53,906 nucleotides of DNA from Halorubrum lipolyticum DSM 21995 (GTDB lineage: Archaea > Halobacteriota > Halobacteria > Halobacteriales > Haloferacaceae), in NCBI RefSeq assembly GCF_000337375.1, contig NZ_AOJG01000001.1, forward strand, positions 1-53,906, written 5' to 3'. This document shows, in pieces, positions 9,705 through 53,661 of this stretch. A program made the position numbers and the translations under genes. Each line of letters starts with the position of its first letter. Position 1 is the stretch's first letter. The notes under the pieces are model-generated. The model did no database searches and was not told the origin of the DNA. It saw only the letters and a list, made by a program, of their open reading frames with translations.

Positions 9705-10250
9705 TTTATAAGAATCAGGCAGCGGATCGACAGCGAACACCTCCAAAGCCCCAGCCGCTCGGCTATACGTTGTCGTTGGTGGGGGGGGACGGAAAAGACC
9801 TCCAAAGCCCCAGTCGCGAGGACTCGTGCGCCTTGTTGAGCTCCTCGCTCGTTCGCTTCGCTCACTCGCTGCGGTGCTTACTGCGGCGTGCTTCGCCCTC
9901 GCGACTGCCCCTTTGAGTCCCACCCGCCCGCAACCGCACCGCCGGAAGACGGTCGCCTCGCTCCGCTCGGCGCTGCGACTTCCGTGCTCCCGCTCGCTCC
10001 CTCCGGTCGCTCGCGGGACCGCAGCCTCACACCTCCCCAGCCTCGTCGCCGGCGGCGAAGCCGCCGGCTACCCGTGGCGCTCTGCGCCACGCTGTCACCG
10101 GCGCTACGCGCCGGTTGCAAGCGAGAGCTTCGCTCTCGCCCTGTCGGTGGTCCTCCGCTTCGCTCCGGACCACCGACTCCCTCGCGCGGTGCTGCTCGCG
10201 GGCCACCGGCCCGCTCGCAGGCACGCGCCGACAGCAGGTACACTCTCACG
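9705..10250 (+). ncRNA. Dispersed structured element, copy A (likely RNA gene, long form)
   Basis: TTTATAA (9705-9711) is followed 23 bases later by GAACACCTCCAAAGCCCCAG (9735). A second CTCCAAAGCCC head follows at 9800. CAGTCGCGAGG (9811-9821) pairs perfectly with CCTCGCGACTG (9897-9907), flanked by CCC/CCC and then CTCcAAAG with CTTTGAG (9911-9917). Downstream are hairpins with 3-base loops at 10048-10068, 10073-10091, 10097-10115, 10121-10139 and 10199-10213, and a stem 10146-10153/10167-10174. It fills the gap between the convergent peroxiredoxin and DUF5518 genes. The open frame across it is an artefact of hairpin composition. Confidence 0.75.
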
Positions 10251-36463: not shown

Positions 36464-36655
36464 GAGTCCCTGACCGCGTCGCCGGACTACGTCCGGCTGC
36501 AAGCGAGGGACCGACGGTCCCTCTGGCGGCCGGCGCACAGCACCGGCGACCTCGCGCGGTGCCGTTCGGGCCTTCGTCCCGCTCACGGGCACGCGCCGCC
36601 ATACCGTTCTTTATAAGCGATCACCGCAGTCGCTCGTGTGTATGTATATATAACA
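36464..36655. repeat. Dispersed hairpin element, copy D (head missing)
   Basis: The copy begins at TTGAGTCCC, the middle of the conserved motif seen in A and B. It contains hairpins 36481-36497 (GCCGGAC/TAC/GTCCGGC) and 36505-36523 (GAGGGACC/GAC/GGTCCCTC) joined by TGCAAGC. It ends with the shared tail (GGGCACGCGCCGCC, TTCTTTATAAGCGATC). It lies between the halocyanin and helicase genes, and the gap holds nothing else. Confidence 0.65.
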
Positions 36656-52355: not shown

Positions 52356-52499
52356 CTACTGCTGACGGCCGCCCAGACACGATGTACAGGCGCCCGCGCC
52401 GTCGTTCCAGTGATCGTCGCAGACGGCGTTCCCGCATCGCGGACAGCCATGCCTGGCCTGTGCCGACTCGCACACCTGACAGAGTCCGGCGACGCTCAT
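52356..52499 (-). CDS. Small zinc-finger protein (47 residues)
   Basis: The protein has CQVCES, CPRCGN, CDDH and CTSC, eight ligands in 47 residues, so it should bind two zinc ions, in the manner of small haloarchaeal zinc fingers or HIT-type fingers. The ATG at 52499 lies 52 bases from the divergent trmY start. Partners are unknown. Confidence 0.82.
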   Translation of the reverse strand: MSVAGLCQVCESAQARHGCPRCGNAVCDDHWNDGAGACTSCLGGRQQ

Positions 52500-52550
52500 G
52501 CCTCGCTCTCCGGTCGCGTGCCTTATCAGGGTCCGGGTGGATCCGAACGC

Positions 52551-53168
52551 ATGCGCCAGTTCGTCGTCATCGGCCACGACGCGCCCACCGAACCCGACGC
52601 GATCTCGCTGTCGGACATCCCCGGCGCGGGCCGGCTCGACCTCCTCTGTCGGTGCGTTTCAGCGGGCGTCTTCCTCTCGCACGGGATCCGCGAGTCCGTG
52701 CGCGTCCACCTCGTCGCCGCCGACGAGTTCACGGTCACGTTCGACGCGGACAGCCTCCGGCACCTCCACCCCGACGAGCGCAACGTCGCCGCGCGGATCC
52801 GAGACGCGCTCGACGCGCAGGACGACGCCATCGGACACATGCCCGCCGACGTCTCGCCGGGAGTCGAACTCCGGCGGATGGGGCTCGACGCGACGCTGGA
52901 CCGGCTGCTCGACGGCGGCGCGGGTGCGGCCACAGACCCGACCCTCGTCCAGCTCCACGAGGACGGCGACCCTCTCGTCGAGGCCGCGCCGCCGACCGAT
53001 CCGGTGTTCGTCCTCTCCGACCACAGCGACTTCGCGCCCGCCGAGCGCGACCTGCTCGCCGACCGCGCGGAGCGCCGCGTGCGCGTCGGTCCCGAACTGC
53101 TCCACGCCGACCACACCGTCTCCGTCGTCCACAACTGGCTCGACACCGATGGCTACGCCTCCTACTGA
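52551..53168 (+). CDS. trmY: tRNA (pseudouridine54-N1)-methyltransferase
   Basis: The 205-residue SPOUT enzyme methylates pseudouridine 54 in archaeal tRNAs. It begins MRQFVVIGHDAPT, has LLCRCVSAGVFLSHGIR (about 31-47), and ends with the knot region FVLSDHSDFAPAE and HADHTVSVVHNWLD. The CCTTATC box about 28 bases upstream fixes the start at ATG 52551. The next gene overlaps its 3' end by 20 bases. Confidence 0.93.
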   Translation: MRQFVVIGHDAPTEPDAISLSDIPGAGRLDLLCRCVSAGVFLSHGIRESVRVHLVAADEFTVTFDADSLRHLHPDERNVAARIRDALDAQDDAIGHMPADVSPGVELRRMGLDATLDRLLDGGAGAATDPTLVQLHEDGDPLVEAAPPTDPVFVLSDHSDFAPAERDLLADRAERRVRVGPELLHADHTVSVVHNWLDTDGYASY

Positions 53169-53661
53169 CGACCGGCGCACGACGACCGCGCCCGCGACCG
53201 ACGACCGGTTCGCGGTTCCGCTCCGGGGCGTCGCCGTCGACCCCGAGACGCGGTGTGCCCACTGGGACACCGCCGTCGACGTGGTCGCGCTCCGGCTCAG
53301 CTGCTGTGAGACGTACTACCCGTGCGACGCCTGCCACGACGCCGTGACCGGCCACGCGGCCGAGCCGTGGCCCCGCGACCGGTTCGACGAGCCGGCGGCC
53401 CTGTGCGGGGCCTGCGGCGCGACCCTGTCCGCCCGCGAGTACCTCGACGGGGACAGCGAGGGACCAAGTCCCTCTGACAGCGAGGGACCAAGTCCCTCGG
53501 GCAACCGGGCTTCGCCCGGTGACAGCCGGACGCAGTCCGGCGACAGCGAGGCGCAACGCGCCGCTGGCAGTCGGGCGAAGCCCGACGACGCCTGCCCCCG
53601 GTGTGACGCCGGGTTCAACCCCGGCTGCCGGGCGCACCGCGACCGGTACTTCGAGGTGTGA
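53149..53661 (+). CDS. CHY zinc-finger protein carrying an inserted hairpin array
   Basis: The 170-residue protein has the CHY-type zinc module: RCAHWDTAVDVVALRL (about 35-50), CCETYYPCDACHDAVTGH (about 52-69), WPRDRFDEPAALCGACGA (about 74-91) and CPRCDAGFNPGCRAHRDRYFEV at the end. It binds three zinc ions; the role is probably protein-protein or RNA-linked. Between YLDGD and DDACPRC, where homologues are short, there are about 45 low-complexity residues (DSEGPSPS, SDSEGPSPSG and so on). That insert is encoded by the hairpin array. It overlaps trmY. Confidence 0.9.
   Translation: MATPPTDDRRTTTAPATDDRFAVPLRGVAVDPETRCAHWDTAVDVVALRLSCCETYYPCDACHDAVTGHAAEPWPRDRFDEPAALCGACGATLSAREYLDGDSEGPSPSDSEGPSPSGNRASPGDSRTQSGDSEAQRAAGSRAKPDDACPRCDAGFNPGCRAHRDRYFEV
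53452..53586 (+). repeat. Array of six covarying hairpins inside the CHY gene
   Basis: Six units of 21-24 bases follow one another. The hairpins are 53458-53474 and 53482-53498 (GAGGGAC/CAA/GTCCCTC), 53504-53520 (ACCGGGC/TTC/GCCCGGT), 53525-53541 (GCCGGAC/GCA/GTCCGGC), 53550-53562 (GGCGC/AAC/GCGCC) and 53570-53586 (GTCGGGC/GAA/GCCCGAC). Linkers are GACAGC, GGGCA or TGGCA. The stem sequences differ from unit to unit but always pair, and the array preserves the frame. Similar hairpins and linkers occur in copies A and D. Confidence 0.92.

Follow-up and report, generated by a model that had tools for sequence, protein, structure and literature searches.

A 45-bp double-hairpin element of haloarchaea, nested and in frame within protein genes, as a candidate mobile element

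Introduction

Among described systems, those that appear closest by analogy to the element reported here are PATEs, REPINs and the Rickettsia RPEs. Two short hairpins also make up the mitochondrial double-hairpin elements and the yeast GC clusters, which are mobile, sometimes intragenic and able to nest in each other; these are mitochondrial, and are likened to our element by description only. PATEs, in the parts of two accounts on which we draw, are palindrome-associated transposable elements of Haloquadratum and other haloarchaea (PMC3119063; PMC10544981). For REPs and REPINs, movement in trans by a Y1 transposase (RAYT) is proposed in the sections of two papers used here (PMC3733652; PMC3116915), and palindromic elements inside genes are a known kind, the RPEs (PMC2229807).

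Here we analyze a stretch of 53,906 nucleotides of Halorubrum lipolyticum DSM 21995 (contig NZ_AOJG01000001.1, positions 1 to 53,906; hereafter the window), in which a first-pass annotation had noticed small hairpins as an in-frame array within a CHY zinc-finger gene and had suggested a module that spreads or is re-edited at hairpins, perhaps as a single-stranded DNA template or a recombination target.

Results

The hairpin array in the zf-CHY gene

The array lies C-terminal to the Pfam zf-CHY domain (PF05495, residues 36-94) of its host protein and is flanked by the conserved CxxC pairs C86/C89 and C149/C152. The features of the region are as follows.

52410-53168, + strand: gene just upstream of CHY, with an empty site near 52707-52727
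53149-53661, + strand: zf-CHY protein gene, host of the array; 170 residues, ATG at 53149, PF05495 at E 4.2e-11
53455-53589, + strand: complete array, 135 bp (3 x 45-bp elements), in frame; empty-site homologues are without these 45 residues
53455-53478, + strand: left half of the outer element; AGC, hairpin A (GAGGGAC caa GTCCCTC), TGAC
53479-53523, + strand: inner nested 45-bp element; AGC, hairpin A (GAGGGAC caa GTCCCTC), GGGCA, hairpin B (ACCGGGC ttc GCCCGGT), GAC
53524-53544, + strand: right half of the outer element; A, hairpin B (GCCGGAC gca GTCCGGC), GAC
53545-53589, + strand: third element; AGC, hairpin A (GAGGCGC aac GCGCCGC, one mismatched pair), TGGCA, hairpin B (GTCGGGC gaa GCCCGAC), GAC; model E 3.8e-15

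One element is nested between hairpins A and B of another, with the third beside them, and the inner nested copy is the best match in the genome to our covariance model (E 1.8e-16). Five stems with 3-base loops are perfect (53458-53474, 53481-53499, 53504-53520, 53525-53541 and 53570-53586) and a sixth (53548-53564) has a single mismatch. The hairpins annotated at 53452-53586 are present and correctly located, the natural boundaries of the array being 53455-53589; the roughly 45 in-frame residues placed between zinc ligands are likewise real, absent from empty-site homologues and situated between the CxxC pairs. The annotated unit, a single 7-bp hairpin, had to be abandoned, as A and B alternate with fixed linkers to a total of 45 bp, and the A-B double hairpin is the real unit. 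A search pattern built on the GACAG spacer was uninformative.

As single-stranded DNA the array folds at -52.4 kcal/mol, compared with -33.6 kcal/mol for dinucleotide shuffles (z -5.9, 0/200). At the protein level, the AlphaFold (AF2) model gives pLDDT values of about 40 over the array (residues 102-144) and of 83-92 in the adjacent core, which places the array peptide in a predicted disordered stretch.

Anatomy, ends and insertion site

The 45-bp element reads 5'-AGC-(hairpin A, 7 bp/3 nt)-NGGCA-(hairpin B, 7 bp/3 nt)-GAC-3', with hairpin A standing 3 nt from the left end and hairpin B 3 nt from the right end; its termini are AGC and GAC, its two stems are unlike in sequence, and terminal inverted repeats are absent. 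All 42 ungapped copies have GAC at the right end, whereas on the left GAC precedes 37 copies, AGC or GGC 4 and AAC 1, nested copies being preceded by GGC or AGC rather than GAC. Because the right GAC never varies and the left flank does in nested copies, GAC is part of the element and no target is duplicated. At the level of sequence we thus show insertion 3' of RRC, mostly GAC, with sharp ends and no target duplication, as well as placement of the whole unit between genes, within genes and within other copies of the element. A composite is identical, by inspection, over 66 bp in three non-orthologous genes of three species.

Filled and empty sites

Presence and absence were compared at species level, with one genome per species. 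CHY homologues occur in 47 of the 52 Halorubrum genomes, and many carry no array (for example L060, reading CTC GAC GGC GAC GAC GAC GCC TGT), others having a single element (L044, L054), a pair (L042) or three differently arranged (L035, L041); L034, L037, L038, L079, L080 and L082 show the same A(AB)B nesting as the window array. The first-pass annotation had looked to whole-unit length differences in this gene as a sign of mobility, and it is indeed whole 45-bp elements that vary among species, the array not being fixed. Halobellus and Halovenus, which serve as outgroups, have the site empty, so the insertions are derived. Some units of shared arrays have lost pairing (L038, L040, L045), so that pairing is apparently not kept up once an element is in place.

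In H. kocurii and H. persicum an element occupies the gene upstream of CHY, in reverse orientation and in frame, at the site that is empty in the window genome. Two upstream-gene copies (L037 1002-1059 and L045 2272-2329) differ in their B loop, which is GAA in one and the exact inverse, TTC, in the other; such loops at an orthologous site suggest that the hairpin may have been inverted.

Reciprocal empty sites were found in two other reading frames. In PurA, site 1 is filled in H. ezzemoulense, empty in genome G009 and occupied by an altered copy in H. sodomense, and site 2 is filled in G009 and G016 and empty in H. ezzemoulense; both sites are empty in the 28 other genomes checked. In the second frame, 5-formyltetrahydrofolate cyclo-ligase-like by eye and without an NCBIfam match, site 1 is filled in H. 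halophilum and empty in the window genome, and site 2 shows the reverse.

Copy number and taxonomic spread

Searches with the covariance model of the double hairpin returned 95 matches at E<=1 in the window genome, or 83 at E<=0.01 with stricter filters, and between 2 and 92 copies per genome in 52/52 Halorubrum genomes. Class-wide, 256 of 292 haloarchaeal genomes, in 68 of 77 genera, have model matches. Of 197 genomes drawn across the phylum, 33 belong to the order of the window and 29 of these matched; the remaining ~164, non-haloarchaeal, gave one weak match (E 2e-4). A reversed consensus pattern found nothing in 52 genomes in which the forward pattern found dozens of matches, and this control, with the best E value above, bears out the expectation that the same units recur elsewhere in the genome beyond chance. 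The link drawn earlier to two intergenic copies also holds, as the model matches both:

10039-10149, - strand: intergenic copy A, two tandem elements of the longer-stem intergenic type; 10039-10100 at E 6.9e-12, 10102-10149 weak
36472-36535, - strand: intergenic copy D, one element with hairpin A GAGGGACC, linker TTGCA and hairpin B GCCGGAC; E 2.8e-7

With unit presence, number and order differing among Halorubrum species, units dispersed genome-wide and through other genes, and empty sites, the notion of a spreading module is supported.

A longer intergenic repeat (..CCCCTTTGAGTCCC..CACGCCTCCCCAGCCTCGTCG..GACTCCCTCGCGC..) occurs at window positions 10033-10230 and at many loci (for example L091, L099 and L104). 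It often flanks intergenic double hairpins and contains another, variable hairpin.

No curated Rfam model scored above its gathering score over seven copy-bearing loci. Two scans of IMG/VR and a search of phage records, made with viral vehicles in mind, gave no exact pattern match, and no PDB chain contains the element peptide.

Copies within protein genes

Conserved genes with in-frame copies include acetate-CoA ligase-like and nitrite reductase-like genes of the window genome, PurA, LeuC, valine-tRNA ligase (ValS), a formate dehydrogenase-like gene and histidine kinases and, on haloarchaeal plasmids, genes annotated as aconitase, ppsA, merA and CobN. By a codon-position test, which is approximate, 29 of 32 copies called coding share orientation and frame and encode DSEAQRASGSRTQSGD-like peptides, counts that include orthologues and are thus not all independent. 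The other three are oppositely oriented, one of them weak (in the window genome) and two at one site of the gene upstream of CHY (H. kocurii and H. persicum). By the same test 71 of the 77 copies in the window genome are noncoding; the CHY copies, owing to their short flanks, do not pass it.

Coding matches nearly all span 58 model positions, corresponding to the 45-bp element, and noncoding matches in the window genome mostly span 60-64. The B loop GTA, frequent in intergenic copies, would read as a TAG stop in the coding frame and is absent from the 42-row alignment, which consists mostly of coding copies. Since the element measures 15 codons and is stop-free in the frame used, reading frames are kept, and the inserted peptide, of the DSEAQRASGSRTQSGD type, is polar and probably disordered.

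Many histidine kinases carry element arrays following the catalytic N-box (NSVEHG), as at G000:C40:95719-95776 (L090), with further N-box-associated arrays at L301-L305, L314-L330, L138, L139 and L218; one kinase (G015:C1:1571279-1571471, L325) has four tandem elements with an exact 45-bp period. In the kinases the left arm of hairpin A consists of the N-box codons themselves and the right arm complements whichever synonymous codons are used, so that the arms switch together between matched synonymous blocks (GTCGAGC/GCTCGAC and GTGGAAC/GTTCCAC). CobN carries the element at the same position in two haloarchaeal families (L143 in G106, and L289 on plasmid 2 of Natronococcus occultus), which points either to a hot spot for insertion or to a copy of great age.

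Pairing and covariation

Over the 42 ungapped copies 99% of cells are paired, a percentage inflated because the copy-finding model rewards pairing. Two-sided pair changes number 92 in the same copies, against a single one-sided change (a G-U), a scarcity that is harder to attribute to the model; two-sided cells numbered 28 on average in shuffles and at most 7 in slid controls. Covariation reached 0.425, compared with 0.150 when shuffled. Residue pairs track the base pairing (E-S 32, V-T 5, A-A 3). Together with the GAA/TTC loops and the switching kinase arms, the prevalence of two-sided changes lends suggestive support to re-editing at hairpins, as first proposed.

Discussion

We put at about even (a probability near 0.5) the chance that we are dealing with a minimal mobile element, palindromic and non-autonomous, which travels as single-stranded DNA, a reading drawn from sequence comparison. 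Its end hairpins, sharp ends, nesting and lack of both terminal inverted repeats and target duplication match PATEs and REPs, and for this reason mobilization in trans is favored. The two hairpins would serve as left- and right-end recognition structures for an enzyme supplied in trans, a scheme modeled on the proposed working of IS200/IS605, PATE and REP elements, which would account for the sharp ends without terminal repeats or duplication, for nesting and for the dispersal of composite A-A-B-B units. Pairing would be kept by recognition during movement rather than by the host gene, leaving old copies to decay, and coding copies would be the survivors of selection for the right length and frame, a stop-free loop and a tolerant protein loop. 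The CHY array would then go back to a single invasion, with a second element set inside that first copy and a third next to it.

The window genome, despite its 83-95 element copies, has no match to Y1_Tnp (PF01797), across 30 Halorubrum genomes Y1 gene counts and copy numbers show no correlation (Spearman -0.16, P 0.38), and a clear element copy lies within ~1.5 kb at only 1 of 30 Y1 loci. A Y1/RAYT protein as current mobilizer in the window genome was accordingly rejected, its gene being absent there and copy numbers uncorrelated; a past or divergent Y1-type enzyme is possible. No autonomous parent element was found. The coincidence of the kinase hairpin A left arm with the N-box codons of the kinase itself would not be expected from simple transposition.

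The main alternative, which we hold to be unlikely though still a serious competitor, is transposase-free spread by template switching during replication. A nascent strand stalled at GAC, with hairpins causing the stalls, would pair with the GAC end of a distant element, copy it and return through the second GAC, and snap-back synthesis would copy one arm onto the other. Microhomology of this kind is consistent with insertion borders that are mostly GAC on both sides, and a copy-rich genome devoid of Y1 transposase is readily accommodated, as are the almost exclusively two-sided pair changes, the inverted loop in one orthologous pair, the kinase right arms that match whichever synonymous codons form the left arm, and tandem arrays of exact period 45 (G015:C1 1571279-1571414). 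Template switching would, however, be expected to leave partial copies or donor flanks, whereas copy ends are nearly always the same bases, and nested copies are preceded by GGC or AGC, not GAC. A bolder form seems to us rather doubtful: a self-spreading hairpin module without dedicated transposase, which would switch templates at GAC, have its arms rewritten by snap-back, sometimes from host sequence as in the kinase N-boxes, and continually feed 15-residue peptides into haloarchaeal proteins.

Less probable again is homologous recombination or gene conversion between copies, with tandem duplication, after a few original insertions. Tandem arrays do exist, and CHY, the kinases and CobN each have an insertion site common to many species, but the single copies at PurA sites 1 and 2, whose orthologous sites are empty, have PurA flanks and not those of another copy, and the reciprocal empty sites weaken this account. 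A non-mobile origin, in which a low-complexity acidic linker peptide of halophilic proteins is selected and the hairpins are a by-product of codon usage, would suit a polar peptide in a predicted disordered stretch and the common frame and orientation of coding copies, but we consider it refuted and very improbable because most copies in the window genome are noncoding and covariation is nucleotide-level, residues changing in pairs as base pairing dictates and opposite-orientation in-frame copies encoding a different peptide.

Searches of the open-access literature, peptide strings included and with subscription journals and preprints outside their scope, found no account of the element. As far as checked, its range of archaeal hosts, its form of two hairpins in 45 bp and its nesting within itself are new, and by the open-access papers it is apparently the first archaeal case of a tiny class-wide element lodged in core enzymes with frames unbroken, which makes it a natural experiment on the way insertions enter proteins. 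Because arm pairing forces paired amino-acid changes, selection on DNA shape becomes separable from selection on protein, and finding the mobilizer would allow a test of whether 45 bases and two hairpins suffice for transposition.

A non-autonomous IS200/IS605 derivative would need a trans-acting Y1, at odds with the missing PF01797 and the lack of a genus-wide correlation. SMRs of Haloquadratum, at 80-110 bp and with terminal inverted repeats, were rejected as a match. PATEs share with the element palindromes near both ends, the absence of terminal inverted repeats and target duplication, a length too short for a transposase and a haloarchaeal host (Table 4 of PMC3119063). They differ in size (489 bp, the sole figure found, in the consulted part of PMC10544981, against 45 bp) and in being tied to IS605-type transposons, a relation that the single clear copy among 30 Y1 loci and the Y1-free window genome do not bear out for our element; in-frame insertion into conserved genes, which the element has, does not figure in the PATE descriptions within the parts used of PMC3119063 and PMC10544981.

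REPs and REPINs, as portrayed in the sections used of PMC3733652 and PMC3116915, are alike in having short hairpins that bear an unpaired tag, frequently come in pairs and are in some cases intragenic, but paired REPs are mostly oppositely oriented, whereas A and B are fixed in order and direction. The element has neither the GTAG tag nor, in its own genome, a Y1 gene to stand for RAYT. Its reverse strand starts GTC/CGTC, like the CGTC-tagged REPs, which those sections also leave without a known transposase; in these genomes, however, GACG is a common tetramer. RPEs resemble it as palindromic repeats found both between genes and, as in-frame fusions, in conserved protein-coding genes (PMC2229807). 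They are bacterial, 105-146 bp long and built of long stem-loops with terminal inverted repeats (PMC2229807), whereas the element has two separate short hairpins in 45 bp and, unlike RPEs, is spread class-wide in archaea in nested and tandem copies.
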